Positions 6,932-58,306 of a stretch of DNA of 64,000 nucleotides are shown here, piece by piece. Location of the stretch: contig OX422204.1 of assembly GCA_949130485.1 (NCBI GenBank), forward strand, positions 3,073,515 through 3,137,514, in the 5' to 3' direction. Made by a program: the position numbers and the translations under genes. Numbering within the stretch: the stretch's first letter is position 1; each line of letters opens with the position of its first letter. The notes under the pieces are model-generated. The model worked only from the letters and a program-made list of their open reading frames with translations. It did no database searches and was not told where the DNA came from. This DNA comes from Agelas oroides. Its lineage: Eukaryota; Porifera; Demospongiae; Agelasida; Agelasidae.

Positions 6932-7584
6932 TCAGTCACATTCGTTGTTGCGCTCATCTTGGTGGACCAGTTCCATATCTTTGAATGCACTCTCGGCCCA
7001 GGTTCCAAGCACCTTGGTTAGCTCACTCTGAACTGAGGTCAATCCGGTCTTCAGTCTCTTCTTCTCGTCATCGTTTAGCTTCTTCATTCCGTCACGAACT
7101 CGCTTCTTTGTCAGGACAGGGTAGTTGGCAGCAACCACATAGCCATTGGCGTGGTAGGAGCGAGGGCCATCAAGGTGAAGGCCATAGATCTTGGAGGGCT
7201 CTGTCACTGTCATGAACATGAACTTGCATACCTTGACAGGCTCATAGAGGAGTGGGTTGGTCTGTGCTATACGGAACACTATGTCACCCACTTGAAGGAG
7301 CTTGAAGTCGATGTTCGGATTCTCTTCTTTTGCTCCTTCTGGTTCGAGACACTTCCAGCCTTCTGTTGTCCAGAAAGGGTGGTTGAGTGAGGCAAAAGGA
7401 TCGTCATCGTTGATGCCAAAGAGCTGTTGTCCAGGCAGGAGGTCATTATCGACGTACTCTTCTGTGATAGTAGTGGTTTCTCCTCCTTGAGCGAGCAGCT
7501 TCAGCCCTGCTGCCTGCTTCTCAATGGGTATCTCCTTCCCATTTGTTAGTGTGATCTTCGTTCCAGCAGTGAAACATCCACCAC
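6932..7584 (-). CDS. GBP-Hint A exon 8: Hint domain and C-terminal tail
   Basis: Acceptor 'caaaag' in a T-rich context, phase 1. Encodes 'GGGCFTAGTKITLTNGKE', where the Cys is the presumed nucleophile. 'NHPFW' follows (block B His), then 'YGLHLDGPRSYHANGYVVAA' and 'NYP' (the end of the Hint fold). After it comes a tail of about 60 residues, rich in Lys/Glu and ending NNECD before TGA at 6934-6932. It is about 94% identical in protein to 57651-58306, and nearly as close in DNA. Confidence 0.92.
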
Positions 7585-39600: not shown

Positions 39601-41827
39601 AATGGGCAGAAACGGTAGTTGTGAAACTCTGTCGTCTGGCCTCTGAGAAGCATTGTATTGACCTAAAAATGGTCTCAGAAGCAATCTCATAGCCTCTAAA
39701 TTCCCAAAATTTCTGGGGAGCATGCCCCCAGACCCCCCTAGCTCTAGGGTGCTTACGCACGCACTACGAACCTGACCACTCAAAACCTGATGGCTACGGC
39801 ACTGGTACAGGCGCATGCATGCTGTCATGCGTTAGGCGTACAACAAACACGGGGCTCGCTCAAGCTCACCTCAATAAACCCCATAGGCGACGGAACCGGG
39901 GGGGCCAGGGGGGCACGTGCCCCCCCCCAAACCTTGAGGCTGGGGGGGGGGGGGGGGGGGGGGGGAGGCACGGGGGGGGCACGCTCATTTTCGAGCGAGC
40001 CAGAGAACGCTTGACACTTGGCTACCTGCAGCTAAGAAAACAAGTGACACCGAGGTAAAAAGTACACGCCTTGTAACGTTACCAGGTTGCGAATGGAAGA
40101 AGTGGGTTACCTTCCTGTAGTCTCGCGGCCATTCTGACCTTTTCAAGTATAGTACGGTACACTCTAAGCTGCGTGGGAGGGGGGAAACCCCCTACGGCCG
40201 CCGCGCTACAACTGTGCCCCCCCAAATTCGAAGTGCTTCCGGCGCCTATGAACCCACTTTCTTTTCAGCATGTCTGCGACCAGCTAAGTTAATACACAGG
40301 CCACAGGAAGTGTTGCATGTCCAATCTGAGTTGATATTCGTTAATGGCACGGCTCACTTACCCCAGGAATGAAACCTTTTTTTGGGAACCGAAGTGGAAA
40401 GAAAATGGTGTGCAAACAGCAAAATGCATCACGGTGAGGTCTGCATGGGCACAAGACTAAATACAAATGCAGATACTTGTGCAGCCAAAATATAGAAGCT
40501 TGGATGGTGAAGCCACTGAGTGCACGTTGTGTAAACATTGTGGTTGCAAGCTGAATACTGTTTAACTACAGTTACAGACTTAAGTCTGGTAACTCAGTGA
40601 AGATTGACCCGCACGCAGACCAGAAACAGAAAATTGTGTGGTCGTATGCTTAAAATATTATCGCAAGCCTGAGCACCATTGGAGATTATGTAGATATAGC
40701 TATAGCAGGCGCGGAGGAGGGGGAGGAGAAAGAGCGCCTGGTATACACTGTTTGCGCATGCACTAATCGCCACGGTCCGCGGCGACCGTGTTTGTATGCG
40801 TACATACGTATCTGGTGATGTCATAAACTCGCCGCGTTGATGTGTCAGTTGGCGTTCTGTTCGAGCGAGTTTTGTATATGCCTTCTGGTAGCTGGGTACC
40901 TCGAGATAAAGCCCAAGAACAGGTTGCCTCCATTGAGTGTGTTTACCGAGGAAGCATACCTTTTGCGGTTATCCAATTTCGGTAAGTCGATTCCTACCAC
41001 TGCCTACCGGACATTTCTCTTTGTATCCGACAGTATAAAACTAGGCAGAGCATGTAGCAGCAATGTTTATAGCGTCCTAAGAAACAAAAGCTGAGGTAAT
41101 TTTTATGACGGTTCATGCTATTCACGTGAACCGTTGATCGTCATGTTAGTACACGCCCCTAATTCTGGCCTTTGCTATAATTAGGCGCATGCACGAACAG
41201 TGTAAACCAGGCAGCCTACGAGGCTAGTATAGCTACTTCACTATGATGAGGTAGTAGTGCATGCATGACTTATGAAGTGATGAATAATAAGAACTGTGAT
41301 TGATGGTAAGGATACTGCATTTGTTGCAAATCTCCTCTCCTGGGAACTGTCGTGGAATTGTAGATTAGGAGTGAACTCAGCAGAACACTCAGTGTAAAAA
41401 TCTGGTTGTCACTCTTGTCACTAGCAGAGGCAGCATCAATCCCTTCGGTATCTAGTAAAACCATGGTGACTTCTTCGCCATTTTTCAGACGCAGCTTGAA
41501 AGGGCGATCCCACATCCAAATTCCCATAGTCTCAGGATCCATATTGTGGCCCAGTTTGAATGGGCATTGCTGATGAGAGTTGCTGATAAGCCGCCCAAGG
41601 ATGTACGACTTGCCAGTTCGGCATGGACCTACCACTGCTAGCACACATACAGGGCCTGAGATTTCCCTCAGAACATGTAGTGCTTGGGGAATAGCTTTTA
41701 GGGAGGTACGTTTGATACCTCTGTGATGTTTGCATTCGCGAGTGTGCTTATTCCATTCCATATCATTCGGAAGACAGAGTGGGATTGCATGCCCTTCGTC
41801 AACCATTGATTCTGACCCAAAGTGCAT
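6932..41827 (-). CDS. GBP-Hint gene A: GBP-like GTPase - coiled coil - Hint protein (eight exons)
   Basis: Eight minus-strand exons join in frame to 862 residues: 41827-41316, 37569-37389, 21066-20805, 20005-19713, 18946-18677, 14777-14655, 9861-9567 and 7584-6932. The N-terminal G domain has P-loop GPCRTGKS (residues 67-74), DTEG (126-129) and the G4-type 'WLLRD' (205-209), the marks of the GB1/RHD3 (GBP/atlastin) GTPases. A helical region follows, then a Gln/Glu/Lys-rich coiled coil, then a Hint domain starting with GGC (Cys649) and containing NHPF and 'SYHANGYVVAAN'. Family members hydrolyse GTP and self-assemble, and vertebrate GBPs attack intracellular pathogens. A Hint domain suggests self-cleavage or ligation of the C-terminus. 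Exon 1 could be internal, because the frame stays open to a TAA about 95 nt upstream of the chosen ATG. The span includes a 16.3 kb intron full of mobile elements. Confidence is high for the parts and moderate for the complete join. Confidence 0.8.
7788..7816. repeat. A-run plus (TA)n tract
   Basis: Low-complexity A run followed by alternating TA, in intron 7 of GBP-Hint A. Confidence 0.8.
8330..8520. mobile_element. Diverged partial hAT-like MITE (family of 33020-33493)
   Basis: It shares blocks with the right half of the complete element at 33020-33493: 'aatttgcgat', 'gataatttg.ag.cacac', 'gcactggtggg', 'ctagttgct.ggg' and 'ccccagcttgg'. The terminal inverted repeat is degraded. Confidence 0.6.
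9136..9162. repeat. (ATTC)n microsatellite
   Basis: About six perfect ATTC units in intron 7 of GBP-Hint A. Confidence 0.9.
9203..9332 (+). repeat. Dispersed repeat, copy 1 (partner 34062-34187)
   Basis: Starts 'gtgttggaggatttcttcaa' and ends 'ccatgggaaaatgtaaa'. A similar sequence in the same orientation occurs at 34062-34187, and a third fragment near 49800 shares 'tcttcaaagttcc'. No coding frame is conserved between copies. Confidence 0.75.
9567..9861 (-). CDS. GBP-Hint A exon 7: coiled coil
   Basis: 98 codons rich in Gln, Glu, Lys, Leu and Asn. The frame opens 'LQSLQDQFQRDQANLKAELE' and later has 'LKQENEAAYSQLQSRMQQER'. Leu and other aliphatic residues recur with heptad-like spacing and there is no Pro, as expected for a long parallel coiled coil. 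Phase 0 in (acceptor 'aattag'), phase 1 out (donor 'gtacat'), matching the Hint exon. It is the counterpart of the coiled-coil end of the large exon in gene B. Confidence 0.85.
11324..12295. mobile_element. Foldback element with ~100-bp inverted ends, carrying a nested MITE
   Basis: The left end (11324-11410) and right end (about 12205-12295) are inverted copies. Both contain 'ttggtacaaaacc', 'gactggactcatg', 'actgatttttgga' and 'caagttttggacagatg'. The GGACT/CCAGT-rich ends resemble those at 60287-61029 and a fragment near 33900. It lies in intron 6 of GBP-Hint A. Confidence 0.8.
11651..11962. mobile_element. MITE nested in the 11.3-12.3 kb foldback element
   Basis: The ends are inverted copies built on 'aactgcgtatacaagcc' and its complement. 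The ~250-bp interior has no coding signal. Its position between the arms of the outer element shows a later insertion. Confidence 0.7.
12777..13025 (+). repeat. Tandem repeat, five 50-bp units
   Basis: Units begin at 12781, 12831, 12881, 12931 and 12981, each reading 'tgcct.agagggttcacaga' and on to 'gtacatacattgtatg'. The copies are virtually identical. The first and last have T where the three inner ones have G ('cttag' versus 'ctgag'). Confidence 0.95.
13140..13495 (+). repeat. Dispersed repeat, copy 2 (partner 1-360)
   Basis: Co-linear with 1-360 over the whole length, with substitutions and indels. It lies directly after the 50-bp tandem array in intron 6 of GBP-Hint A. Confidence 0.7.
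13805..14299. mobile_element. MITE with TIR CTGTAGTCTCGCGAAAGAG, TA target site
   Basis: The left end 'ctgtagtctcgcgaaagag' is mirrored by the right end 'ctctttcgcgagactacgg'. TA dinucleotides flank it (13803-13804 and 14300-14301). Subterminal 'gcgcccaccc' blocks are also inverted. No transposase is present. A second copy, interrupted by an insertion, is at 34266-35405. Confidence 0.88.
14655..14777 (-). CDS. GBP-Hint A exon 6: coiled coil
   Basis: 41 codons starting 'EQENERKRLESQLSKLKNYD' and ending 'ELKEQELIIQRRE'. Strongly charged and helical. Phase 0 on both sides (acceptor 'cttatag', donor 'gtacca'). Confidence 0.82.
15501..16800 (+). repeat. Large minisatellite of 20/21-bp units (41-bp dimers)
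   Basis: About 60 tandem copies of 'ctcaagtggacagtccaata', mostly alternating between a 20-bp form and a 21-bp form with one extra A, which gives a 41-bp higher-order unit. Sequence identity is almost complete from 15540 to 16740. Only the last units, from about 16741, degrade ('cagtgcaata', 'gatagtacaa'). It lies in intron 5 of GBP-Hint A, between exons at 14777 and 18677. Confidence 0.97.
18677..18946 (-). CDS. GBP-Hint A exon 5: GBP helical region
   Basis: 90 codons beginning 'GQLAEYTRDGNCKRGTKLAS' and ending 'AAAEILEKFIR'. Predominantly helical and charged, in the position of the GBP C-terminal helical domain. Phase 0 on both sides. Confidence 0.85.
19713..20005 (-). CDS. GBP-Hint A exon 4: GBP helical region
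   Basis: Encodes 'MVQLYIDALNSDGIPVVGST' followed by 'WQRVLEATYESAVGEA'. It aligns with 'KYIEALSDPDSIPCLDNTWQ' of gene B, the GBP motif (Y.....G..P.....W) at the start of the helical domain. Phase 1 in, phase 0 out. Confidence 0.88.
20050..20178. repeat. Inverted repeat (foldback) in intron 3 of GBP-Hint A
   Basis: 'agttatag' and 'gggatttatggcagtaaaca' on the left recur inverted on the right ('gtttactacagccataaatc', 'ctataact'). About 55-bp arms, with a short centre at 'cccgagg'. Confidence 0.75.
20805..21066 (-). CDS. GBP-Hint A exon 3: end of G domain to helical region
   Basis: Encodes 'VLVPDATDDRCQQGIRKCLL' and then 'SFFSAFDAETIPPP', ending 'GSKVNGF'. It aligns with 'ILSFFPTVECMTLP' and 'KKGYMKGMLVDG' of gene B. 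Phase 0 in, phase 1 out. The SFF...E.. string followed by a Pro-rich loop is typical of GBP-family proteins. Confidence 0.88.
23694..25142. mobile_element. Foldback element built from ~40-bp satellite units in inverted arms
   Basis: Both ends carry an inverted ~125-bp unique segment: 'gtgtggtggccc', 'gacatgcgaaagtcg' inverted, and 'accgtatatttacgaataac' inverted. The interior of each arm is an array of units containing 'ggtcaccgatcggagtggtg' and 'cggtctgtgatcaccc', in opposite orientation in the two arms. The arms meet near 24430. The whole 1449 bp could form one giant hairpin. No transposase frame and no clear target duplication. The structure recalls foldback elements with repeated inner arms. 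Confidence 0.9.
25264..25304. repeat. (TA)n / (TTTA)n microsatellite
   Basis: 'tttatttattta' followed by about twelve TA units, just right of the foldback satellite. Confidence 0.9.
25731..25996 (+). repeat. Tandem duplication, 2 x 130 bp
   Basis: The block beginning 'ctgattccacagctctatgg' and ending 'cttgttcgtactaagctg' occurs at 25738 and again 130 bp later, with about three differences. Confidence 0.92.
26717..26968. mobile_element. MITE with 9-bp target duplication TCTACTATA (repeat copy 1)
   Basis: Ends 'cagaggaggtcgg' and inverted 'ctgacctcctctg'. Inner inverted blocks include 'gaggtcacactaattga'. Flanked by TCTACTATA at 26708-26716 and 26969-26977. 252 bp, no coding frame. The 9-bp duplication suggests a Mutator-like (MULE) transposase. 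Confidence 0.9.
27582..27635. repeat. (ATT)n microsatellite
   Basis: About 18 uninterrupted ATT/TTA units between repeat copies 1 and 2. Confidence 0.95.
27893..28144. mobile_element. MITE with 9-bp target duplication TCTACTATA (repeat copy 2)
   Basis: Same 252-bp element and same flanking TCTACTATA (27884-27892 and 28145-28153) as in copy 1, so the insertion predates that duplication. The homologous point in copy 3 (near 28716) reads as an empty site. Confidence 0.9.
29540..29824 (-). pseudogene. RecQ-like DNA helicase fragment (motif I)
   Basis: The minus strand encodes 'LKAEQLDVIKCICDGKDVFL', then 'WLPTGFGKSICYETLPFVF' and 'VVLVVSPLVYLI'. These correspond to RecQ motif 0, the Walker A motif (TGFGKS) and motif Ia. 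Upstream, 'EDFDKALKFAL' reads in the same frame but is cut off by an in-frame TGA before LKAEQ, so a small indel is likely. Downstream the frame ends soon after SPLVYLI. No other helicase motifs (DEAH, QxxGRxGR) are nearby. It is probably a dead fragment of a multi-copy RecQ-like gene. Confidence 0.75.
30545..31312. repeat. Inverted repeat pair, possible degenerate DNA transposon
   Basis: 'gctgatcacgtgatcttcag' plus 'ccaatcaggtg' at about 30551 recurs inverted at about 31273-31305 ('cacctgattggctgaaggtc', then 'acgtgatcagc'). No recognisable transposase lies between. 29825-30544 holds nothing I can identify. Confidence 0.6.
31309..31406. repeat. Hairpin with 26-bp arms
   Basis: 'tataacacacttagctgtac' and the inverted 'gtacagctaagtgtgttata' surround a loop of about 40 nt. 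Confidence 0.85.
32135..32594. mobile_element. MITE, pogo/Tc1-mariner type, TA target site
   Basis: Ends 'tagtggaacctcccttaat' and inverted 'attaatagaggttctactg', flanked by TA (32133-32134 and 32595-32596). Same family as 5438-5924. Confidence 0.85.
33020..33493. mobile_element. hAT-like MITE with TIR CAGTGGCGTAGCCAGG
   Basis: 474 bp. The left end 'cagtggcgtagccagg' pairs with the inverted right end 'ggctacgccactg'. Flanked by the 8-bp near-duplication aaatagct/taatagct (33012-33019 and 33494-33501). An 8-bp target site and ends beginning CAG(T/G)G fit hAT elements. Confidence 0.85.
34062..34187 (+). repeat. Dispersed repeat, copy 2 (partner 9203-9332)
   Basis: Same order of blocks as 9203-9332: 'gtgttggaggatttcttcaa', 'cacatgaaagtgcc', 'cacatcaaagggaca' and 'ccatgggaaaatgtaaa'. 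Confidence 0.75.
34266..35405. mobile_element. MITE (family of 13805-14299) split by a later insertion
   Basis: The left end 'ccgtagtctcgtgaaagag' and right end 'ctctttcgcgagactctac' are flanked by TA (34264-34265 and 35406-35407). Only the outer parts (to about 34358 and from about 35195) match the 495-bp copy at 13.8 kb in reverse orientation. The ~840 bp between are foreign and contain another repeat end ('gcatgctcccccaggaattt'). A short perfect hairpin built on 'gtgctccgcccat' lies at 34284-34317. Confidence 0.8.
35461..35883. mobile_element. Foldback MITE, tagcctc...gaggcta ends
   Basis: Arms of about 170 bp are inverted copies: 'cattcccaggccttcccacc', 'tacctaggtag' and 'ttcttttgatggg'. 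The outer 'tagcctc/gaggcta' is shared with 52325-52876 and 52984-53565. Confidence 0.85.
35884..36128. mobile_element. Short MITE, TA target site, cactgcaaaaac ends
   Basis: Left end 'cactgcaaaaacaaagttgt', right end 'attttgtttttacagtg', flanked by TA (35882-35883 and 36129-36130). The internal block at 35990-36126 recurs at 44036-44172. Confidence 0.8.
36215..36650. mobile_element. MITE with ~60-bp TIR (tcactgcaaaa...)
   Basis: Left 'tcactgcaaaaggtactcag' plus 'gtggttactctagtttcag'. The right end is the inverted 'ctgaaactggagtaaccac' plus 'tttttgcagtga'. The right end also overlaps a fragment near 33525 of the same family. Confidence 0.75.
36854..37220. repeat. Repeat with recurrent 'ggcggctactattc' blocks
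   Basis: 'gggcggctactattcaa' is repeated at 36890 and 36909, and related 'cggctactattcg' and 'ggcgactattcgaggg' blocks recur at 37172-37207. Probably the remnant of a TA-targeted element starting 'ccgtatttcttcga'. Confidence 0.6.
37389..37569 (-). CDS. GBP-Hint A exon 2: G4 region of the G domain
   Basis: Acceptor 'cctag', then 'FIANLSKSIQVQAGKSAEGT' and 'SNPRFMWLLRDAMLKP', ending 'FKDYLLQK'. It aligns with 'FPNFLWLLRDVHLLPVD' and 'EYLKTK' of gene B. The WLLRD is the GBP equivalent of the guanine-specifying RD motif. Phase 2 in, phase 0 out. A lone 181-nt exon between two long introns, found by paralogue comparison. Confidence 0.85.
37887..37927. repeat. (GT)n microsatellite
   Basis: Interrupted GT/TGTG tract in intron 1 of GBP-Hint A. 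Confidence 0.9.
38227..38242. repeat. Poly-C tract
   Basis: Sixteen C residues in a row. Confidence 0.9.
39053..39586. mobile_element. MITE with TIR CCGTATTGTCCCGAGCAAGC, TA target site
   Basis: Left 'ccgtattgtcccgagcaagc' pairs with the inverted 'gcttgctcgggacaatacgg'. TA at 39051-39052 and 39587-39588. Subterminal 'gcccacccc' is also inverted. 534 bp, no transposase. Confidence 0.9.
39895..40010. repeat. G-rich low-complexity repeat including a 24-G run
   Basis: 'ggggcacgtgcccc'-type palindrome followed by a run of about 24 G (39942-39965) and further G blocks. A strong G-quadruplex candidate and a likely assembly risk point. Confidence 0.85.
41316..41827 (-). CDS. GBP-Hint A exon 1: GTPase core
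   Basis: Start ATG at 41827-41825. Encodes 'VLAVVGPCRTGKSYILGRL' (P-loop), 'KLGHNMDPETMGIWMWDRPF' (G2/switch I region with the GBP-like GIWMW) and 'MVLLDTEGIDAA' (G3). The donor after 'atgca' at 41315 leaves phase 2, which the exon at 37569 completes. It is clearly paralogous to the first exon of gene B. The frame is open upstream to a TAA about 95 nt before the ATG. Confidence 0.88.
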
Positions 41828-42958
41828 ATCAAATTGCTTGAAATGTGCGCACGACTGTTGACTCTTGTTCAGTTTGAGCTGGGCTGGGTTTAAGTGTCCA
41901 ACATTTGGCTTTTACATTGCTTTCAAGTTTTCCTGCAATGCAGATACACACAATCTAACGCCAGGAAAGGATAATGAAGAGAGGAGCTAGAGAAATTATG
42001 GACCTAAAATAAGCATACACTTTTGATTGAAACTGAAGTTTCCCACTGCATGTATTCATAAATTAGTGCATTACTTACATGTCCAATGCTCACAAATAGG
42101 GTGCACTACCGTAAATTTGGGAGTATAAGCACCATGACTACAAGTACCCTATGAATATATGAGTATACCAATACCTTTACTATAGCCACCACCCATTGGC
42201 AAACGGAAATATGTTGACAATCAAACATATACCCACTAACGCAGAAGAATGGTAGGAAGTCTGGAATAAATAAAATCAATCAGTTTGTTTCTTGGCCTTC
42301 TGCTATCTTTAGCCGACGTCTCCTGGTGCTGCCTGATGCCGCTAAACAAACCGCCAAGTTAGCTAGTCTATATACGTGAATGCTAATGTATATATTAAAG
42401 CTCGACTTCAGTCCGTCTTCTGAACGACAATGATTGTACATATAGTACACTAGTTTGCCTGGCGGGAGATACTATGAGTACAACCACGTCGAGTAAATTC
42501 AGGCCGTTCCGTTCTGTCGCGGAATTTACTCGTAATAAGTAATTACAGCCGTTCCGTTGACCGGCGTGCAAGACTACCATCTAAGCTTACGGATTTGGAG
42601 CCCTCGCCAGGGATTAAACTTTATCTTGCAGATCCTCAGTCCACTGCCGCACACTCACCAACTGTTAAACGGTGGGCTATCCGGCTTGTGTAAAAGTCTT
42701 TATTCCATCATCATACCGGAAGTCCATATATACGTATCCACACAAAATTATTTTCGCGGCACGTTGACATGCACCCGCACGTCCAATATAAGCTTGGACC
42801 CAGTCTCGCAAACTGGACCCAACCAATCCCAGCGCGGATCCCCAGTTGATTTAACTCAAGAAGGGTATGTACCTCAGTTGCAGGACCTTGGCCTAAACTG
42901 CCTCCCACTTTTACCACAGTGTAGGGTTGCAGCCTTTGCTACTCAAAAGTTTCAATAA

Positions 42959-44765: not shown

Positions 44766-45283
44766 ATGGCAGCGCCAAAGAGAAGGTTTATCCAGAGGGT
44801 TCTTCAGCACCCCGAACTAGCAACATTGCCTGCTTCCGTCCCCCTAGTCATCCCCGACGATACCGAGTACGATTTCGCAAACAACGAGTTGCGCCTCGTC
44901 GAGGGAAAGCCACGCTCCAAACTCGTACTCGTGCCGCAAACGTTAGAGCTGATCAAAAGCATCAAAAAAGATTTGGGCGTTCTGTCTATCTGCGGACCCT
45001 GCCGTACAGGGAAGTCTTACGTTCTTTCGCGAGTGCTAGGTTCGTCGGACGCTTTTGAACTAGGCCACACGATGGATCCCAAGACATTCGGAATCTGGAT
45101 CGGGACTACGGTGCTCGAATGCGATGAGTTTACTCTCCTGCTGATGGATACAGAAGGTATCGACGCTGCAACCGCACGAATGAAGGACGACGCCAGCGTA
45201 TTAGTGATGACGATTCTCCTCAGCTCCTTCATGATCTACAATTCGCTACAAGTACCAAAGAAGAACGACCTTGAAAAAATGAG
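44766..45283 (+). CDS. GBP-Hint B exon 1: GTPase core
   Basis: Starts MAAPKRRF and includes 'LGVLSICGPCRTGKSYVLSR' (P-loop), 'LGHTMDPKTFGIW' and 'LLLMDTEGIDAATA'. Donor 'gttagt' leaves phase 2. GC-richer and with fewer T-ending codons than the large exon 55268-56817. Confidence 0.92.
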
Positions 45284-48200
45284 GTTAGTGATATTCTTGG
45301 CATAGTGATGATGAATTTGTGCGAAGTAAAAATGATTGATAGGCCTTGTTTCCGGCCCCTTGACTATATCCAACCTTATTTCAATAACCACGGTTTTATA
45401 TACACAATGCGAGCTAAAGTACGGTTGATTTCACTTTTCTTCGAATGAGCGTCACCGTTAAGTGTAAGCGTACATGATCAACGCTCTGTGTGGAAGATAC
45501 TATAGTAAGTACGCGCGCTTGTACAAGTACAAACGCACGCAAACTGATACCCTCACGTCACGCTATTAAAATTCGATGAGTGCATGGTACGCCATGCCAG
45601 GGACTGTCTCTAGATGTCTTCTGACCAGGAAGAATTTTAAGAGCAAAGTGATTGTCCTAGTGCATTCAAGTAAGACTCAATTCCGTACGAGATAAGTACT
45701 ATGCAAAACAGCTAACACTCTAAACCGTACGAGATTGTTGCAAAATGACTGTACGAGATAGGCCTATTTCGGGAGATTTTTGCGTGTTAGTTCCGATTCG
45801 TTGCGTACTATCATGAATACTTGCAGCGGCCGCGTAGTCTAGCAATGCACATGGCAACGCGCGCCCACGGTCCGATTACCGTATTTCAATTTCAATTTCA
45901 ATTATACCATGCGGCACGCGTTGGCACCTTATCTCCTACAGGTACGCGTGTTAGTTACTTACAATTGCGTCGTGCAGATTTTGCGTGTTAGTTTCAAGTT
46001 TTCTTGACGTAAGAATTTGCGTGTTAGTTTCCACCAAATTAATCCATCTCGTACCGATTTGAGTGTTAGTTCAGCCCTAAATTCAGCCTAAACTCGTACG
46101 GATTTGCGTGTTAGTTCCATCAGCATATTCTGGGGTCCTGTCACTACTCTTTTTTTTATAACAGTTCTGGGGTACAATAATAGCAAGTGATAATTGTAAT
46201 AGAGGGGGATAAATATTTACATTGTACATAATTGAGTTGCAATAAAGAACGTTTAAAGGAGTATAAATAGTCACAACCATGTACTGGAGGGGGGAGGGAG
46301 TTCCATAAGTCAATAGTACAGTGTGGGGAAAAAAGGAGAACTGATGTGCATTAGAATAGGTAACAGGTCTCAGAAGTAGAAAGGTGCTGTTGTTTCTCAA
46401 ATTTAGAGGCAGGTTTCTCCAGACAACAGGTGCACTAGGGAAGTCAAGCTGCCCTTGAATGACTTGGTAGAGGAGGCACAGCTTTAGGTAATGCCTTAAT
46501 TCTGCTTGCTAGATTGGGCAGATTACTAGACTGCAATAGTGTGGCATAGTCAGAGCTCAAATTTCTGTACTCTCTCCAGTGAGTCAGAGAGGCCTTGTCG
46601 GTGGGGGTCCAAAACCGGAGCTGCATATTCAAGGTGTGGTCGAACAAATGTTAGAGTTGCAACAGGGTCGAGCTGCTTGTATTGCTGTAAAACTTGCAAT
46701 CTAGCCCTTGTACAGATTTCAGAAATGTCAGTAGACCAGTTCAGAGTGGATGTTATTCATATACCAAGATATTTATAGGAATTGACTCTCTCTAGACAGC
46801 AGTTGTTGATAAGAAGGGGAGAGTTAGGTATGATGGGCTGTTTCTTTCTAGATTGTTGACATCACCTTGCAGATCATGATAGTCGGCAGATGTGTAAATT
46901 GGGTAGTAAAGCAAGATGTCATCCGCATAAGTTCCATCAGACAAAGGGATCATGGTGATGTCATTGACATAAACAATGAACAGCAATGGCCCAAGAACAG
47001 AGCCTTGAGGAACTCCAGAGTAAACAGGCAAGATGTCAGATGAGGAGCTGTTTACGCAAATGTACTGATGTCTAAAGCTTAGGTAGTGAGTTAACCATTT
47101 CAAGATGTGAGAATGGACATTAAGGTCCTTGAGCTTCTGTAATAGGGGTCGGTGGGGGACTGTGTCAAACGCTTTTTACTAAAGTCGAAGAATACAGCGC
47201 AGATATCAAGTTCTGAGTCAAGTACTCTGTGCCAGTTATCAGTAGCGGCGAGTAAAGCTCCAGTGGTGGATTTACCATGGGTAAAGCCCCACTGTTGGGT
47301 AGAGAGAGGATGGAATTCTTCAAAGTGGTCAACCAGTAGGTTTCTCACATGCTTTTCCAGAAGTTTGCTCAACACAGAGAGCAGTGAGATTGGGCGGTAG
47401 TTTCCTGGATCGGACTTGTTGTGTGAGTGGGAGAGTCTACAATCTGAGAGAGGCAGAAACTAGTCATAGGGTCAGAGAGGTGAGCATACAAAGGATGAGT
47501 ACTAGTAGTAAAGTCAACATTAAAGTTGCCAACAATTACAAAATTAGAAAGATATACATGTACATACTGAGATAAAGAATTACACAACAGGTCAAAAATA
47601 ACAGGTGAAAAAGATGGGGGTCTGTAAAACACACCTATGCTCTATACAATGACACAACAATGAGTTCCAGGCCAGCAGGACCACACAACAGGACATTGTA
47701 CAATATGCTATTATGAATGTACAAAGCAATACCACCACCATGTCTGTTCCTGTCAAGCCTCAGGATAGAGTAATTGGGGATATGTATCTCTGAGTCCAAA
47801 ACATCTTCACAAAGCCATGTCTCAACAAGACATATGATATCAGGTTTATCATTTGAACACAGGGCAACATGTTCGTCAAACTTGGGCAACATGCTTCGAC
47901 AATTAAAGTACATAATAGAGAACTTACTGCCAGGAGGTCCAGGAGCTTGGGGGCGAGATTGAAAATGGGGCAAAGATTGATCAGAGCTATCACCCTGCAT
48001 GGAATCAACAGAGTTCATTGAGACTCTAAAAAAAGATCCTCAGGTTCATTAGTGGAGATGTTAACTGAGTGCTCAGTGGTGGGAGGTGGATTGGGAGGTG
48101 GATTGGGAGGTGACGGCAAGGTGGGCATGAGTGAGATAGGGTCAGGTGGGGCTCCATCAGACTGCTCTGGTGGAAGTTCCCTATACACGAGACACTCCTC

Positions 48201-51200
48201 AAGCCTCCATGATGTTTGGATTGAAACACGTTCCCATATCTGCTGTACTTTGACAAGCACATCCTCTTCTCCCCGGATGAGAAACCACCATCTTGTAACA
48301 CGTCCATTGTCATTAGTTTTAAATTTCCTATGAAGTTGAAGTTTTCCAGCAACAGTTGGACAGCGTTAAGCAATGGTAGTTGACACTCTCTGCATCGTAC
48401 AAGCTTTCATGGTACCCCAGACCTTGTGGGCACCAGGAACACTGACCTTTTCTCGTACAACTCATGGCTCTGTTCCATACACAACCACTTTTCAGCTCCT
48501 TCGGGTACTGGAGTGTAGTACCAATCAGTGTTCCCAGACTTAGGGAAATATCCCTAGATCTAGGGGATTTGATACTAGTTTAGGGACTAGGGGAATTGTA
48601 CAGAGACTTTAGGGATAAAATGCCAGTATCTAGGGAATTACAGTAAGAAGACTCATACAGATTGTTTTGGGGTGATATTGAGAGTCAATAGGAGGCCAGA
48701 CATGACTTGGCATACTGCTTGCTCAGGCTCGCCCCAAAATGCCCTACATTCGTCTAGTTAGATAAACACGCAAACATTTCTGGTACACTACAAGTAGCCA
48801 TGGCAGCCTTCGCGTCGTTCAGGCACCATGTTGCCAAGGCACCACTCTTGCAACCATGCATAATATCTACTTACCTAGATCTGATTCATCCCATGCAAAT
48901 CACCATGGACACATTTGCACAGCAGCTGCTACGGGCTAAGTGAACTGCGCATGCTATAATCACCACCCTACGCAAACCATCCACGCGAAGGAGCTGTATG
49001 GTTTCCTCCCCCACTAAAAGCTGAAAGTTTTTACAACAACAATTTAAGGTGGCACGGTCGTCCCTCGGCGGAGGTTAACGAAAACATAAACTTGGGTTAC
49101 AGTCAGGACCAGGGTTACTCCTAGTTTCAGGGTTAGGGTTTGGTTTAGGGCAATCTTGCTTTGCCTAATTTTAAAAAGGGTTTCAGTAGCTCATTAATAT
49201 ATTCATGAACCCAAAATTGCCACTCGATGGACGCATCTACACGCTCACTGTAGGTAGCGTCCCAACCACCAATGTATCTCAAATCAATCTATGCCAGCTT
49301 TTGTTCAAAGCTACTCTCAAAGTCAGGCTAGACTCATGTTTGTCACTACTCTTGGAATGGACAACTTTGACTGCACCAAAATGAATGCACATTTCGAAAA
49401 ATTCACAGCTTGTCTACGGGAGGGGCTCATTCACGAGTGGAAGCAAGCATTACTAGCCCCACCTCTCCCCCTTATGTCGCTAAACAACTCACGGCTCTGT
49501 TCCACACACAGCCACCGTTCAGCTCCCTTGTCTGTCAGACTGTAGCACAAACGATAAATTGCGTATTCTAGTTAAAGCCCAGCCCAGCACTCGAAGCACC
49601 TGGCCACGGTCACCAACTAGACTAGGCATACGGCCGCGAGACCTGGGCCTACTCAACAAATACAGTCTTGGCCACTGTGGCCTTTCTGCTGCTTCTAGAC
49701 ACAAGCTTGCTTTCACAAGCAGGCATCACGCACTACTCACAGCTACTGACACTACAGCACTCTACTAAACTCCTTCTCTTTTTTTTTTAAGTCGATCTAA
49801 GCTTATCTTCAAAGTTCCGAGCACCACATGAAGGGTGCCGCCAGGCCACATCTTAACTAACTTAATTATAAACTGATTATTGGATGGCAATGCCGACAGG
49901 AAATGGGGAAAATCTCCAATTTTACGGACCGTGAACGGTTTGAGACTCCCAAAACGGACTGTGCGCTAAAATTTTAACAGGACAAAGAAGACTATCAACT
50001 TGGATTCCAGGTTTGTTGACCTTGAAAATACAGGGTACCGTGCCACCTTAAGCGCAAAAGTGTAGTAAGAAGGCGGTACTTCACTTCCCAATGTATTATA
50101 GTCAACTTATAATTTTTGGGGGGGAGTAGAGAAAGCATAAAATACCATCAAAATCAGTTAGCTTGCTGGGTGTGTGGAAAGGCACGGAAGGAGTATGCAC
50201 AGTGTAAATAAAAAAAATTTGTTGTGGCAGACATTGGCACCAGCCAGGAAGCACACTCCAACACCTTCCAATTGGCACTGCAGCAGATGTAGACTTGACT
50301 GCCAACATCCGAGAGACAGACAGCACTGTGTCTTTTTCAGGGGATCCCTCTCCTGCACAATATGCAAATTTTCAACATTATCTCTAAGAGGAGGGAGGCA
50401 ATGACAGCACATAAACCTTTCGGTAGGCCAAGAGAGAATGGAAAGCGCAAAGCATACACTTACCATCAGTCCTGCCAGCTGCATGGCTAACTCTACGTCT
50501 CCAGATTGTCTCAGCCTGTGTCCAATTTCCCTCTCGGATCTGCAATGCAAGCTGTGTCAGCACATTGTTGACCAACGTTGCACCATCAACATCTCATGTG
50601 CCACCACTTAGAGAAGAAAATAGTTGGCATTCCAACACTGAGGGCTGCTCCAACTACAAAATCAAGAGGGACACTCAGACCATCATGTTGCATGCACCCG
50701 GTTCCCCATTTTACAGTGGTTAGAAACTGTCTCCAGTATTCAACTACATAATGTATAATTTTTTCCAGTTAAGGGGTGGTATTTAGGCCACTACCCGTTG
50801 AATATAAGTTTCTCATCCCCTGCACGCACGCTTTTTTGGGACCCGCTTCACCGGACCATTATCGCCATAATTGTCGATCTCTTGCTCTGTATGCGTTGGT
50901 ACTGTTGAGTTGCATGTCAGTTTGAGCATATTGCAAACCAGCTAAAAGATGTCTCCTTCCTGAACACATCGGAGCACTCACCCCACAGATGCTATATTCA
51001 TGATTATTTCATAGGAGGTGTGGCCTCTCAAGTCCAGGACCCAAACTTTTTTGTGGTCGACGAATGTTATAATGGTAATGGCCACCTGCTCGCATTAACT
51101 TCAGCAAAAGTGCCTGATGAGAAACTAATACTCAATAAATAGTGTGTTTACAACTGGGCTTGGCGACGCTGCTGAGTAAAGAGGTGTGGCTTACATAGTG

Positions 51201-54200
51201 CTCCATATACCACTAAAAATTAAAAAAAGCACAGCAAAATTTTAGCCTAAGACACAATGCTACTAACTTCTGCCAAAGTCACAGTCACAAGCAGTTATAT
51301 ACAGCAGTGTGGTCAAGGGGTCAAAGAAGATTTTAGTCAAAAATATTGACCCCAGGCGGAAAATAGTCTGGGCACGAGACTACCCATGCAGGCACAAACG
51401 TAAATCTGCGCCTATGGAAGTGACCACACCTTGCCTCATACCTTAGTATCATATTCTTTCTTGTCTCTTTTAGGATGCTAGATGCACAACTCAACTTTAG
51501 TATATCAAGTTAATAGCTACTGTAGTGAACTTACATTGACTCACCAAGGTGCCAACTTGAACAGTGTGTATCTACCACCAAAAAATTCTAAGTAGCCCCA
51601 CTTCACATGTGCCACCGAGTAGAAGCCTAGAGCTTCACAAATGACTGTTTTTCATCCTTCACAAAACTTCTTCTTCGTCCAGAGAGAGCCCAAAACACAG
51701 CTTAAAACGCGTGCCACTCGCGGAGATGTACCTTGGCAACTGAACCACCAATTTTCACCGGGTTTGCGCCATTCGCCACAACATGGACAGCAGCTTCAGC
51801 TGCCTCTGTCCACCATGCGCTAGAAGTAGGGATGCGGCTAATATGTGGGCATAGTTTCCGGAATAATCGGTACCACTGCCGAGCAAGCATAATCGGGAAT
51901 AATCGGAAGGCAACATTGAGCGCGCTAGGTGCTTCTGGCTGCGCGCACGGGTATAAAGCTGTTACAGGTGTGCCATAAGGGATGTTTCATGTCTGACTCC
52001 TCCTTTTGGTGAAGCTTGCTTTGATAAAGATCATGATAAGTCACACTACACTCTAAAGGATGGTTGGTGTGAGCATCTTGGGGGCACAGTTTTAACTAAA
52101 TTCTGTTAATTGATTAGCTTGCTACATGAGCACAATAGGGACACACCAAGAGCATAATCGGACATTGTTTGAAGCATTCTAGCATAGCATAGCATAAAGC
52201 CACGTGCTTGGTGTGGGAGGAGTTTGTTAAAAAACCGGAAACATCGCGGAAGCGCGTTGCTACGCAGTTGCCATGCAGTACGAAAAAATTTCATTTACAA
52301 CTTTTTGTCCATGCGGCCGTTGTATAGCCTCGTTCCCAGGCCCAGCGCGTTCGTCGCTTGCAGTACGAAATTCGCGCAGAGGGCCTGGGCTCGTTCATCA
52401 CGTGATGCGTGCCGCAGGCGTCATTTTACGTCACACCAGATATAGCAAAATCGCTGTGTTGCAGAGATCACCACAAATGGAGTTGGAAGAACCTGGAACA
52501 GGTCACGCGCGTACGGTAGACTACAATAGTCAACTCGAGCTGAAGACGAGGAGCCGAAATCCAGGTTCGACCTAGTAACACGATGTGGCCAAGGTATCTG
52601 AATATATACGTCTACTATCCACCTAAGCATGGCAGCTTGTGCTCTTGCGCTGCCGAGACTTTTAACACTTAGGTAAGTTCCCACGCACCATTACTGTGAT
52701 CTCGGGGGGCCTCTTTCAACGGTAAACAAGGCGCTAGCTCATCTATGACATCATTGATTCTAGTAGAAGGGTCGTGACGTAAGCTGCGGCACGCATCACG
52801 TGATGAACGAGCCCAGGCCCTCTGCGCGAATTTCGTACTGCAAGCGACGAACGCGCAGGGCTTGGGAACGAGGCTAGCCGTTGTATACATGTAATGCTGC
52901 AGTGTGATGTCACTGTTACCATGGGTTGCTAAGGGTTACTATCGGTTGTCGTGCAACAAATTAGTTATTACACGGCGGTGCGTTAGCCTCGTTCCCAGGC
53001 CTTCGCGCGTTCGTCGCTTACACACAGTACGAAATAATTCGCTCAGAAGGCCTGGTCCATTTCATCACGTGATGTGTGCCGCAGCTTACGTCACGACCAA
53101 TCTACTGGAATCAATGATGTCATAGATGAGCTAGAGCCCAGTTTAGCGTTGAAAGAGGCCCCCAGAAATCACAGTAATGGTTCGTGTACGAACTTACCTA
53201 AGTGCTAAAAGTTTCGGCAGCGAAAGAGCACAAGCTGCCATGTTTAGCTGGATAGTAGACGTCTATATTCAGATACCTTGGCCACATCGTGCTACTAGGT
53301 CGAACCTGATTTCAGCTCCTCGTATTATTCAGCTCGAGTTTACTATTGTAGTCTATCGTACGCGTGTGACCTGTTTCAGGTTCTTTCCAACTCCATTTGT
53401 GGTTATCTCTGCAACCAATGCTACAACACAGCGTGGCCATATCTGGTGTGACGTAAAATTACGGCTGCGGCACACATCACGTGATGAAATGGACCAGGCC
53501 TTCTGAGCGAATTATTTCGTACTCACGGCAAGCGACGAACGCGCGAAGGCCTGGGAACGAGGCTAGCGGTGCGTGCCATATACCGGATATCGATATGATA
53601 TTGGCACTGTATGACGTCAGAGTTCTCGGGCCTATATACCTATAGCGCTATAGCCTATATTAGTCTCGCAAGCCAGACCCAACCAACCCCAGCGCGGATC
53701 GCTTTCAGTATCACGCAAAGCGATCCGCGCTGGGGGTGGTTGGGTCTGGCTTGCGAGACTAATCCGGCCCTCGAGCTCTGACGTCATACAGCGCCAATAT
53801 CCGGTATATGGCGCTTGCCGTGGTGTAATAACTAATACAAGTCACTTATTGAGAGTGACAATGTAGCTCAGGGTAGGGTGTGAGTTGGTTCACGCGATGT
53901 ACAGGTTCAGCTTGAGCAGTAAGAAACTTCACAAGATGTTGTTGTTTTGTTTTTTTTTAGCTAGCACGTGCCGATCTCAGGGACAGGTGGGAATGTCTAA
54001 ATTGCGCATAAATCTATCTGCACAAAGCACGGAAAATTTTTGACCAGCACGATTTTCAGCTGTTATAGGAACGCTCTTGTGGCATGCTGCTAGTCAATTT
54101 TTGCTTTCCAGGCTGAGTCATCATACCCAGCTGACTTACACACGGTACACCCAGAATGTGCTGGCACATGCGTGAGCCGTCACCAGTGGTGAGTGAAAAT

Positions 54201-57200
54201 TAAAATTGTGTAGGCCCTGGCAAAGGGGCTTTCGATTGCAACCACAGAAAACTGTCTGAATCCACCACTGCCAGGCCATCCCACTTTTTAGATAACTTTT
54301 ATACCAATTTGAACCTTCAACTTGTGCATATTCCTGTCCAAGTTGATGGTCATTGTTGAAACTGTCAACACCAGCAATTGGAGATAGGCACACCAACTTG
54401 GCCTTCTTCCTCTGATTTTCCCAAGCTTGAATTTGGAAGTTGTGTAGCAACATGCCACGAGAGCAGCTTCTTGACCGACAAAACTTGATCCAAGGTTTTT
54501 TGTGTATGAACATCAGTTTCAACATCATGCCTGATGGTTGCTCCACCTCGAGAGAGCTCCACTTAGAGAGAGTTTCATGTTGGCATCCCTAGTGTGTAGT
54601 AGAGCATGCTTTTGCAATTATGAAATCTAGCATAGCTGGATGTATGTTTCATTGCTTTAGCATAGCAGCAGTTTAAAGAGTCCACCACAAAATAAGTAGT
54701 GAAGGAATATTCAACAAATCTGAAGTTGAATTTCATACCAGAAAATCACGGCAGGCTCTTAGTTTTGTGATGAAAACCACATAACCATCTGTAAACCACA
54801 AACTAGTCTGAAAAAATCCTTCTCTTCCATTGGAGGGCCAACTTCAGCAATCTTGGATATGTTTAGGCATCATACTTGGCTGAAGCTCTGAGTGACCCAC
54901 AAAATCTGCAGATGCAGACATTTGGAGGAAGAAAAAAAAAACATTAACACCCTAGCCTTGCATCCAGGCCATGTGGGAGGAGGAAAAGTGTTAGGGTAGA
55001 AGGCTATTAACATCCTTCAATTAAAACTCACATATTTTCTCATACATGCATGACTTAAAATGTGGTAGGTGGTTTCTAAGATCAATAAAAAAAGTATATT
55101 GTTTCCCAAAAAAGTGATATCTAAGATCAGTTTGAATTCCACAAAAAGCCTGTTTTTGAGAGTTAGGAGTCTTTTACACGAAGGCTACAAAGGGTTATCA
55201 TAACTTATCAAGACTTATTAACTTTACTTACTTGGCAATTAATAGTTACTGTTCTTTAATTTTGCAGCTGTTTTGTCAATCTCTCCAATTCAATTGCTAT
55301 ACGAAGTACCACACAAGATGAGGAAGAAGATGAGCTGACTGAGTTTCGAAACCACTTCCCTAATTTCCTGTGGTTGCTGCGTGATGTCCACCTTCTACCA
55401 GTTGATGGAAGTGGGAAAGAGATATCACCAACTGAGTATCTAAAGACAAAAATCCTAGTTCGCAGCAAAAGATTTAATCCTACAAAGAGTGATGACGTTT
55501 CACGTGCCATTCTCTCATTCTTCCCGACAGTTGAATGCATGACTCTGCCATCTCCACATAGTGATCCATCAGTGGTATGTGACATAGCCAAAAATGAGCA
55601 CGTTCTCGAAAAAAGATTCAATGATAAAGCCAACAAGTTGGTTGAGTACCTGTTACAGAAGGTTCAACCAAAGAAAGGGTACATGAAGGGCATGCTTGTT
55701 GATGGTCCCCTGTTTGCTGAGTTGGCAGTGAAATACATTGAAGCTCTGAGTGATCCTGACTCCATTCCCTGCCTTGACAACACATGGCAGTCAGTTGTCC
55801 GAAAGAGGTGTAGTGCAGTAATAGATGAGCTTGTAGCCGAGTATGATACCAAAATGTGTGCCAAGATTGCTGAAGTTGGTCTTCCATTGGAAGAGGAGTC
55901 TTTCTCGATAGATGATAACCAGGCAGTCACTCTATTTGGACTACACCGTACAATCGAGCTACAGCAGACAGAAGCCCTCCTGAAGCAAGTTGGACACTTT
56001 CTTGTTGACCCAACTGCAGCTGACTATGACACTGCTCTGAGCAAAGAAAGCCTGATAGCTGAATTTGAGCAAAAGCTTGCCATCTTTGAGGAAGAGGAAA
56101 AAGTTTATGAAATCCAGGGCAGACAGGCTCGAAAGAAGAAAGTTATAGGAGGTGCACTTGAGAAGTACACCGGACAAAACTACACTGAGTCACACACGTT
56201 TTGCACAAAGCTGTTTTCGGATCTTTATCAGCCAGTAGAACAAAGGGCTCTCGATTCTGATGCAAGCTACACATTTGAGGAGCTCCTAAAAGACCTAGAT
56301 GATTTAAAATCCCAGTACCTTGTAAAGGCATTAGGGCCAGCAAAATGGGAAGTTTATCGTGAATGCAGTGAGCATGTCAAATCGCAACAGGCCATGTTTA
56401 AGAAAGTTCGAGGCTTCAAGGATGAGGCTTTCAAAGCTGCGCAAAAGGCTTCAGAAGCAGGTGTTAAAGCAGCTGAGTTGTCCAACACATTGAATGATCT
56501 CCAGGCACAAATGAAAGATGAAGCTGAACTTAGTGCAAAGAAACTGGAGAAATTTCAAGAACAGCACCAACAGGAAATGGAAAGATGTCGGCAGCAAGAC
56601 CTTCAAAGAATGGAGGATGAACGCAGAAAATATGAAGACTTTGTAAAGACCCAGATGACTCAAATGGCAGAGATGACAAAGCAAAATGAAGAGCAACTAC
56701 ATGAACAGAACAAAGCTTTCATGGATGCAATTCAGCAGAACATGGATCGAAATGACAAGACAATGGAGATGCTCACAGGCGTACTGAAGGAGATGAGTAA
56801 ACAACCTCCACCCCCAGGTATTAGGAATTTTACTAGTAACAGCTCATCTCAAATGAGAAAGTACTTGCAAGTGAAAGATATTTACCATTGTTAGGTACTT
56901 GCTAAAATGAAAACAACTGTTGCACTATGGTTAGGGCAATATTGCACTGTGGATAGGGTTACTGCTGTGTCAGCACAGACTCCCAGCTGTCAGTACCAAT
57001 GTAGGTGCACTAAAACTTGCCAACATCTGTCTATTCAAGTGATTGGGGTATACTTTGAATGGTCAAGTAGGGATCAACTCCTTTTCACCTTGTTCCACAA
57101 CACAAAATGGGCTAGGAACAGTGGTTAGCTGTGCATCTTGTCTAAACTACATCAGAGCCAAAGGAAGCATGCGGGCTTAATAGTGGTGGAAGTGACACTG

Positions 57201-58306
57201 CATGGTTGTTTATATGCCATATCAAGTGGTAGTCACTTATATGTTGCCTGTAGAAGTGTTTGCGACCGCGATCAAGTTTTTTGATACAATCTATTTGCTA
57301 CTTGGTTAATCAATGATTGTTAAGTTAGAACATGTACTTCATCTTCAGGGATGGCCACATTCTTTCAACTTGTATAAGCCATGTACCAACAAGGTCCATC
57401 CTTAGGCACTTGTAAAGTGCTGTGTTTATGTACAATCTGCAAACTGGTAATTTATTTACCACAGGGCACTGAACTGGCTGGCAATGCATGGCTGGTGAAG
57501 CCACACAGTCTTTCGTGCTTTTTAACTAAAAGTGTCTCTCTTCCATTAAATGTTAATAATAAATAATATCCAGTGACTCCACAAGAATCTGTAATGATGG
57601 TACTATCATTAACTCTTCTGTTCATTATTAGTATCTATCTTGCTACATAGATACTAGTGGATGTTTCACTGCTGGAACGAAGATCACACTAACAAATGGG
57701 AAGGAGATACCCATTGAGAAGCAGGCAGCAGGGCTGAAACTGCTCGCTCAAGGAGGAGAAACCACAACTATCACAGAAGAGTATGTCGATAATGACCTCC
57801 TGCCTGGACAACAGCTCTTTGGCATCAATGACGACGATCCTTTTGCCTCACTCAACCACCCTTTCTGGACAACAGAAGGCTGGAAGTGTCTCGATCCAGA
57901 AGGAGCAAAAGAAGAGAATCCGAACGCCGATTTCAAGCTCCTTCAAGTGGGTGACATAGTGTTCCGCATAGCACAGACCAACCCACTCCTCTATGAGCCT
58001 GTCAAGGTGCACAAGTTCACATTCATGACAGCGACAGAGCCTTCCAAGATCTATGGCCTTCACCTTGATGGCTCTCGCTCCTACCACGCCAATGGCTATG
58101 TGGTTGCTGCCAACTACCCTGTCCTGACAAAGAAGCGAGTTCATGATGGAACGAAGAAGCTAAACGATGACGAGAAGAAGAGGCTGAAGACAGGATTGAC
58201 CTCAGTTCAGTGTGAGCTAACCAAGGTGCTTGGAACCTGGGCCGAGAATGCATTCAAAGATATGGAACTGGTCCACCAAGATAAGATCAACAATGAATGT
58301 GACTGA
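44766..58306 (+). CDS. GBP-Hint gene B: GBP-like GTPase - coiled coil - Hint protein (three exons)
   Basis: Exons 44766-45283, 55268-56817 and 57651-58306 join in frame (phases 2 and 1) to 907 residues. G domain: P-loop GPCRTGKS (77-84), DTEG (128-131) and WLLRD (208-212), with GBP-type 'KTFGIW' between. Helical domain from about 220, with 'SFFPTVE', 'KKGYMKGMLVDG' and 'IPCLDNTWQSV'. Charged coiled coil from about 500, then a Pro run (QPPPP) as hinge. Hint domain with Cys694, His759 in NHPF, 'SYHANGYVVAAN' (833-844) and a 63-residue tail. There is no signal peptide or membrane segment, so it is probably cytosolic. GBPs bind and hydrolyse GTP and oligomerise. The Hint module suggests C-terminal self-processing. 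ATG 44766 has G at +4. It is head-to-head with gene A. The GTPase and Hint assignments are strong, and biological function is inferred only. Confidence 0.88.
45760..46115. repeat. Cluster of 'gcgtgttagtt' motifs
   Basis: The 11-mer or a close variant occurs six times (near 45783, 45948, 45980, 46020, 46061 and 46106), always in the same orientation. Inverted 'gctaacactc' plus 'gtacgaga' blocks lie to the left at 45692-45760. This could be the subterminal region of a DNA transposon. Confidence 0.6.
46140..48400 (-). pseudogene. Degenerate LINE (CR1/Jockey-like) retrotransposon
   Basis: Read on the minus strand from about 48400. First comes an ORF1-like segment ('WWFLIRGEEDVLVKVQQIWE') and a Pro-rich linker. 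An AP-endonuclease follows: 'IMYFNCRSMLPKFDEH', 'DIICLVETWLCED', 'RLDRNRHGGGIALYI', and 'IVGNFNVDF' where GDFN is expected. Then reverse transcriptase pieces: 'WGFTHGKSTTGALL', 'FFDFSK', 'SGVPQGSVLGPLLFIVYVND' and 'YADD'. Last is the C-terminal 'WTPTDKASLTHWREYRNL'. At least three frameshifts and a deletion between endonuclease and RT make it inactive, though YADD is intact. It is antisense inside intron 1 of GBP-Hint B. Confidence 0.88.
49048..50047. mobile_element. TTAA-flanked MITE (piggyBac/Kolobok-like target)
   Basis: Exactly 1000 bp between TTAA at 49044-49047 and 50048-50051. Ends 'ggtggcacggtcgtccc' and inverted 'ggtaccgtgccacc'. No transposase. Internal sequence near 49488-49545 resembles 48462-48530 ('ctctgttcca.acaca'). 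Confidence 0.75.
52325..52876. mobile_element. MULE-like foldback MITE, 9-bp target duplication GCCGTTGTA
   Basis: Ends 'tagcctcgttcccaggccc' and inverted 'gggcttgggaacgaggcta'. Long inverted arms ('ttcgtcgcttgcagtacgaa'). Perfect 9-bp duplication at 52316-52324 and 52877-52885. 552 bp without transposase. Confidence 0.93.
52984..53565. mobile_element. MULE-like foldback MITE, 9-bp target duplication GCGGTGCGT
   Basis: Same family as the element 107 bp to the left, in opposite interior orientation. Perfect 9-bp duplication at 52975-52983 and 53566-53574. 582 bp, no transposase. Confidence 0.93.
53575..53812. repeat. Nested palindrome (outer and inner inverted repeats)
   Basis: The outer arms ('gccatataccggatat', 'gacgtcagag') are inverted at 53768-53812. 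Inside lies an almost perfect palindrome at 53659-53763 built on 'attagtctcgcaagccagac' and 'gcggatcgctt'. Fragments of the inner arm occur at 11617, 38578 and 42808, so the inner part is a mobile family. Confidence 0.85.
55268..56817 (+). CDS. GBP-Hint B exon 2: rest of G domain, helical domain, coiled coil
   Basis: One uninterrupted 1550-nt exon, 'tttgcag' acceptor and 'gtatta' donor. It starts 'CFVNLSNSIAIRSTTQDEEE', then 'HFPNFLWLLRDVHLLPVD', and ends in a coiled coil ('QHQQEMERCRQQDLQRMEDE') and QPPPP. It corresponds to exons 2-7 of gene A without their five introns. Phase 2 in, phase 1 out. Confidence 0.92.
57651..58306 (+). CDS. GBP-Hint B exon 3: Hint domain and tail
   Basis: The acceptor 'ctacatag' gives the junction PPPP-DTSGCFTAG. 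Same landmarks as in gene A exon 8: Cys, NHPF, 'YGLHLDGSRSYHANGYVVAA' and a tail ending NNECD, TGA at 58304. It differs from A at about 12 of 215 residues. Confidence 0.92.

Follow-up and report, generated by a model that had tools for sequence, protein, structure and literature searches.

A guanylate-binding-protein-type GTPase of the sponge Agelas oroides predicted to end in a Hint autoprocessing domain

In several vertebrate guanylate-binding proteins (GBPs) a lipid carried by the C-terminal residues serves as membrane anchor; can a GBP instead end in a domain that processes itself? The question is raised by a locus of the sponge Agelas oroides, contained in a stretch of 64,000 nucleotides (assembly GCA_949130485.1, contig OX422204.1, forward strand, 3,073,515 to 3,137,514), hereafter called the window, whose positions are used below. 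A gene of this locus, copy 1, is predicted to encode a product of 907 residues, to which all residue numbers refer. Its sequence and a structural model point to a large GTPase of the GBP type that carries at its C-terminus a Hint autoprocessing domain from the bacterial-intein-like (BIL)/Hedgehog superfamily. The joint claim that the GBP-Hint fusion is real and that its Hint is active in N-terminal self-processing is considered moderately probable. A GBP ending in a self-processing domain would show another control over the place and time of GTPase action and, if true, would allow a test of whether Hint domains have a part in immunity comparable to their part in Hedgehog signalling.

The copy-1 gene is composed of three plus-strand exons. 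Exon 1 (44766..45283) contains the start codon, codes for the N-terminal half of the GTPase domain, including the motifs GPCRTGKS and DTEG, and was matched by PF02263 in a search of the sponge's own genome (259 Mb, 141 contigs). Exon 2A (55268..56817) codes for the remaining GTPase domain (WLLRD), a GBP_C-like helical region, a coiled coil and a proline hinge, and exon 3A (57651..58306) for the Hint domain, which extends from Cys694 to approximately Asn844, and a helical tail of 63 residues. The introns are of the GT-AG type, with the donors AATGAG/GTTAGT and CCCCAG/GTATTA and the acceptors TTGCAG/CTG and ACATAG/ATA; the splice phases match and the three exons give one unbroken frame. The coordinates, splice sites and 907-residue product of a preliminary description of this DNA were all recovered when the sequence was read again.

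The GTPase half was identified with PF02263 (GBP), which matched residues 52-306 over nearly the whole profile (157.4 bits, cut-off 21.1, E 5.3e-46), and with GBP_C, which matched residues 314-373 (42.9 bits, cut-off 24.3, E 5.3e-11), covering only positions 2-60 of the 297 in the profile. Structures of GBP1, GBP2 and GBP5 were matched with E values of 2.3e-38 to 2.9e-29 and atlastins with 2.3e-6 or worse. The P-loop GPCRTGKS (77-84), DTEG (128-131) and WLLRD (208-212) align with the GBP1 and GBP2 structures, and R80, K83 and S84 of the P-loop, D128, E130 and R211-D212, which falls on the RD of GBP1 and GBP2, are present and presumably have the roles that these residues have in GBPs. Thr107 aligns with the switch Thr of GBPs, and Pro105 stands at the place of Ser73 of human GBP1. 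The product thus shares with vertebrate GBP1, GBP2 and GBP5 the GTPase profile, the P-loop Arg, DTEG, RD and the beginning of the helical domain, and its assignment to the GBP (GB1/RHD3) GTPases, made earlier from the motifs, is well founded. It differs from them at the end, where a subset of vertebrate GBPs has a prenylation box and the sponge product a long coiled coil and a Hint domain. When the GBP exon was used as query (of the candidates, the 7998 with most words in common were scored), at least 70 proteins were found at E 1e-40 or better, and the named relatives include coral and lancelet proteins.

Heptad-like periodicity was strong at residues 550-669: in three overlapping segments of 60 residues it was reached by 1, 2 and 2 of 1000 shuffled sequences. 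It was less marked at 520-579 (25 of 1000) and 640-699 (29 of 1000) and absent from the four stretches tested within 400-549. The coil at 550-669 is followed by PPPP, in agreement with the coiled-coil middle and proline hinge described before. There is no CaaX box at the C-terminus of the product, which ends in NNECD, and no AIG1 domain among the eight Pfam families found at E values up to 1 in the scan of the product.

The C-terminal part is strongly identified as a Hint domain by a family profile and by its predicted structure, and both in sequence and in fold it is closer to BIL2 and other intein-like domains than to Hedgehog. The structure model was calculated from 55 sequences (alignment set A4), a hand-picked 54 of 108 related proteins together with the window's own Hint exon. 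A first model from five sequences was poor (predicted local distance difference test score 64) and was replaced; Foldseek already ranked BIL2 first with it. The profile alignment and the predicted structure agree with the complete Hint fold that had been proposed. The profile built here and the structure comparison gave strong matches; single-sequence scans with Pfam and NCBIfam gave matches too weak for a decision on the Hint, the Pfam Hint families remaining below their cut-offs (values below).

Is the domain equipped for catalysis? In the structural alignment, residue 5 of the model, Cys694 (codon 57662..57664, plus strand), falls on residue 1 of inteins and on residue 258 of Hedgehog, and this position together with the row counts makes it the predicted nucleophile, with the predicted cut after Gly693. 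Conservation was counted in 113 rows aligned to A4. Of the 60 rows that have a residue in the Cys694 column, 50 show Cys. His759 (codon 57857..57859, plus strand), the block-B histidine, which is aligned to a BIL2 His in the profile alignment, is His in 96 rows, and His835 is His in 112. When Cys1 and the block-B His were paired across the 60 rows, both were present in 47, Cys only in three, His only in four and neither in six; absence of Cys1 thus tends to go with absence of the His. The last six indicate that the fold can persist without catalysis, as would be expected of a Hint that acts as a non-catalytic tail for oligomerisation or ligand binding; this explanation is nevertheless unlikely, as Cys and His are retained in every row from a GBP-bearing contig that has a letter there (Cys, 10 of 10; His, 20 of 20). 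The alignment thus supports the earlier statement that the catalytic Cys and His of the Hint are in place.

Indications that the GBP and Hint parts belong together come from other contigs. P0001, a predicted protein whose contig measures 404,986 bases, begins at about residue 190 of the sponge product, without the first GTPase half, and continues in a single frame through the remaining GBP part, coil, Hint and tail, with 49% identity; about 20 residues between its coil and Hint are either a linker or a read-through short intron. The fusion proposed in the preliminary description is, as far as these predicted sequences go, borne out by the matching phases and by the join of coil and Hint in P0001. 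When 71 distinct lengths of contigs with the Hint were compared with 51 of contigs with the GBP, 13 contigs were found to carry open reading frames (ORFs) of both, 12 of them longer than 5 kb and the smallest of 3,126 bases; the ORFs were assigned to one contig by its equal size, and the count is one of co-occurrence. Furthermore, the Hint exon of copy 1 has no in-frame ATG upstream of Cys694, the first Met being residue 132 of its open frame, so that the start must be supplied by an upstream exon via splicing, and the nearest recognised upstream exon on the same strand is the GBP exon.

Several observations weigh against a GBP-Hint protein that processes itself. In the single-sequence Pfam search the Hint families were below their cut-offs (Hint, PF01079, 14.4 of 29.7 bits; Hint_2, 12.4 of 28.4; Hom_end_hint, 13.1 of 32.1), and searches of the own genome with PF01079 and PF13403 gave no match; since three Hint copies are present there, these two profiles are blind to this Hint family. 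The Cys694 column has no letter in 53 of the 113 rows (21 begin later and 32 are gapped), and 10 of the remaining 60 have no Cys. Of the intein motif TxxH, His759 is present, but the Thr position is occupied by Ser756. Self-processing is read off the fold and the residues, and a fold is no proof of activity. The splice junctions and the fusion are predicted here from genomic DNA and open frames. Hint copies 2 and 3, described below, have an in-frame Met upstream and could have a separate start, which limits the argument from the missing ATG to copy 1. The ratio of nonsynonymous to synonymous substitution rates (dN/dS) among the Hint copies was 0.32, 0.32 and 0.19 with every upper bound below 1, and the intervals of both pairs that include the copy-1 Hint are wide (0.12-0.72 and 0.13-0.68); between exon 2A and the second GBP exon, 2B, the ratio was 0.17 (0.13-0.23).

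The genomic origin of the junctions, the possible separate starts of copies 2 and 3 and the length of intron 1 (10 kb, with a retroelement-like stretch) would suit a Hint exon that belongs to another transcript, or a mis-assembled locus. Such an absence of fusion is very improbable in view of the single predicted frame of P0001, the 13 other contigs with both ORFs, the matching phases and the lack of a start codon ahead of Cys694 in copy 1. The stretch in intron 1 consists of broken frames (46083-48039, minus strand) similar to endonuclease and reverse transcriptase, by eye a retrotransposon of the type without long terminal repeats.

How would the GBP-Hint protein work? Its anatomy, with a Gly-Cys junction, a block-B His and a Hint fold, fits N-terminal self-processing, which the fusion and the presence of the catalytic Cys and His make plausible. 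Cys694 would attack the carbonyl of Gly693 in an N-S acyl shift, giving a thioester between GBP and Hint, and the thioester would be resolved by water or by a nucleophile such as an amine or a lipid alcohol. The mature GTPase would then have Gly693, free or modified, as its last residue, while a 214-residue piece made up of the Hint and its tail would depart. With less certainty, GBP assembly may bring the processing to a target membrane.

The nature of the nucleophile separates two further explanations. With a sterol or other lipid alcohol attacking the thioester, as in Hedgehog-like lipidation, the Hint would replace the CaaX box as membrane anchor and the tail would be a region for recognition of the sterol or adduct. 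The Hint does occupy the place where a GBP frame elsewhere in the own genome (C17 locus, L014 8274-9890) ends in the CaaX-like CILQ, the helical tail sits directly behind it, and the Gly-Cys-Phe junction is like that of Hedgehog. The best relatives by sequence and fold are, however, BIL2 and intein-like domains rather than Hedgehog, and near the position that we take to be equivalent to Asp46 of Hedgehog (about 738-739, in an assumed register) the residues are variable, with 18 types in column 738; lipidation is accordingly doubtful. Slightly less probable is a BIL2-like ligation, in which a lysine or other amine would attack the thioester and the GTPase would be conjugated to a target without E1, E2 or E3. 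The close relationship with BIL2 is offset by the active set of BIL2, which includes a C-terminal Asn143, whereas Ala843 seemingly takes that place here and Tyr845 follows Asn844. The most far-reaching version, in which GTP-driven assembly on a target lets the thioester form at Gly693 and an amine or lipid belonging to the target then receives the GTPase, is also unlikely; it would be an enzyme-free conjugation in animal cell-autonomous defence, with the prenyl anchor replaced, and the GIMAP and GBP families would have taken up the device separately.

Self-processing in the GBP-Hint protein is expected at the N-terminal side of the Hint only. The 63-residue tail follows the Hint directly and is helical in the predicted model. 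Asn844 (codon 58112..58114, plus strand) is conserved (106 of 113 rows), as are Tyr845 (107 of 113), Pro846 (106 of 113) and Thr849 (105 of 108), and with its start so conserved the tail seems to belong to the domain and not to be a cargo. In the structural alignment, of which the range ends were used, the intein ends fall on Ala843, so Asn844 apparently lies one residue beyond the terminal Asn of inteins. Residues 842-844 are Ala-Ala-Asn, and the terminal His-Asn of inteins and A-type BIL domains is absent in either register, as is the Cys, Ser or Thr that inteins require after the domain, where Tyr845-Pro846 is found. Release of the tail at Asn844, as first suggested, is thus not supported, and protein splicing with tail release was set aside, the register of Asn844 being unsuitable.

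One of the closest known systems is BIL2 of the Tetrahymena BUBL1 locus (6y75, 6tmm), which, according to PMC8616854, joins the ubiquitin-like domain beside it to other proteins via lysines. Its partner is a ubiquitin-like domain, here a GTPase, and its His-Asn end is in register, whereas the sponge Hint lacks that end and has an extra helical tail. Hedgehog takes up cholesterol (as stated in part of PMC7765530); in the Pfam scan of the sponge product PF01079 was under its cut-off and no Hedge domain was found, distinguishing it from Hedgehog and Hog proteins. In PMC2362128, Vint is described as a Hint-like domain at the C-terminus of proteins that have no signal peptide; no VWA domain was found in the same scan and the Foldseek match to a VWA-Vint structure was weaker (8r2c, E 7.1e-5).

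The general idea of an immune-type GTPase with a Hint has precedent. Excerpts of three papers mention coral AIG1 proteins with a C-terminal Hint reported as pfam01079 (PMC3723955), proteins of the type CARD-AIG1-HINT from amphioxus and a small number of fungi (PMC12373286) and Hint among snail GIMAPs (PMC7053062). The Hint is C-terminal in coral, amphioxus and fungi, likewise here, but the GTPase is of the GB1/RHD3 type and the sponge Hint, unlike that of coral, is below the pfam01079 cut-off. In a literature search that covered mostly open-access papers, no GBP or guanylate-binding protein joined with a Hint domain was found, and the papers that combine guanylate-binding with intein were, by their listing, unrelated. 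The claim that no such architecture had been described is therefore uncontradicted, with the reservation that AIG1/GIMAP-Hint proteins anticipate the principle. The GBP-Hint architecture appears to be real, conserved and undescribed, and GBPs apparently join AIG1 as a second family of immune-type GTPases in which a Hint stands at the C-terminus, which together with the published AIG1-Hint proteins suggests repeated recruitment of Hint by immune GTPases.

At least three good matches to this Hint are present in the own genome, all within the C22 cluster, and one further match was at chance level (E 7.96). Copy 2 (6932..7584, minus strand) is 94% identical in protein and has a possible phase-1 acceptor. 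Copy 3 (G000:C22:3137824-3138462) begins just beyond the window end (64309 onward) and follows exon 2B. Exon 2B (62054..63606, plus strand) has its own proline run, a phase-1 donor and the same phases as exon 2A. No separate exon 1 for it was found in the window and 6.4 kb more with a five-sequence exon-1 profile, in which the two known exons 1 score well and the next match has E 2.1. At the C17 locus, too, one GTPase exon is followed by two exon-2 cassettes (L014 4388-4903, 6435-7880 and 8400-9698). The arrangement of a lone exon 1 ahead of two exon-2 cassettes in tandem, present at two loci that lie on separate contigs, suggests that exon 1 is shared and that one N-terminal half may be spliced to alternative C-terminal cassettes.

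A third GBP-Hint gene may tentatively be assembled on the minus strand from diverged GBP exons (41.9 to 18.6 kb), a coil piece and Hint copy 2. It would include an open frame with a GTPase exon 1 (41273..41911), a second-half GTPase exon (approximately 37293..37580, profile E 5.8e-8), helical-region exons (approximately 20770-21201, 19599-20072 and 18635-18994; E 2e-6, 9.7e-6 and 0.044) and, upstream of Hint copy 2, a tentative coiled-coil exon (9567..9861, E 1.9) with the possible phase-1 donor CAACAAG/GTACAT. The gene is tentative because the last two matches of the string are weak (E 0.044 and 1.9).

The DNA of Hint copy 1 (57657-58314) is 95% identical to that of each other copy (copy 2, 7581-6924), copies 2 and 3 are 91% identical over a longer stretch, and the neighbouring GBP exons 81%. 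Synonymous divergence (dS) was 0.70 for the GBP exon pair and 0.10-0.16 for the Hint copies, and the similarity of the Hint copies begins within 2 bases of the Gly codon ahead of Cys1, not at the exon edge. These values suggest more recent copying or conversion among these genes for the Hint block than for the GBP part.

Among the Hint relatives, neither Cys1 nor the block-B His is retained in P0091, P0092, P0096, P0097, P0103 and P0078, of which four bear fungal names; judged by sequence, these are probably inactive Hints. In P0002-P0004, P0059, P0063, P0064, P0065, P0068, P0069 and P0072, this Hint with its tail is preceded by another type of sequence (YG...F...TG.KPDN or similar), and in P0002-P0004 a long sequence also continues beyond the tail. 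GBP exons on C19 (L016, L017) run into open frames of 1819 and 2024 amino acids with, by eye, fibronectin type 3 repeats, and an outside protein, P0181, carries both PF02263 and PF00041. A tRNA-Val (AAC) gene is located at 465-538 of the window.
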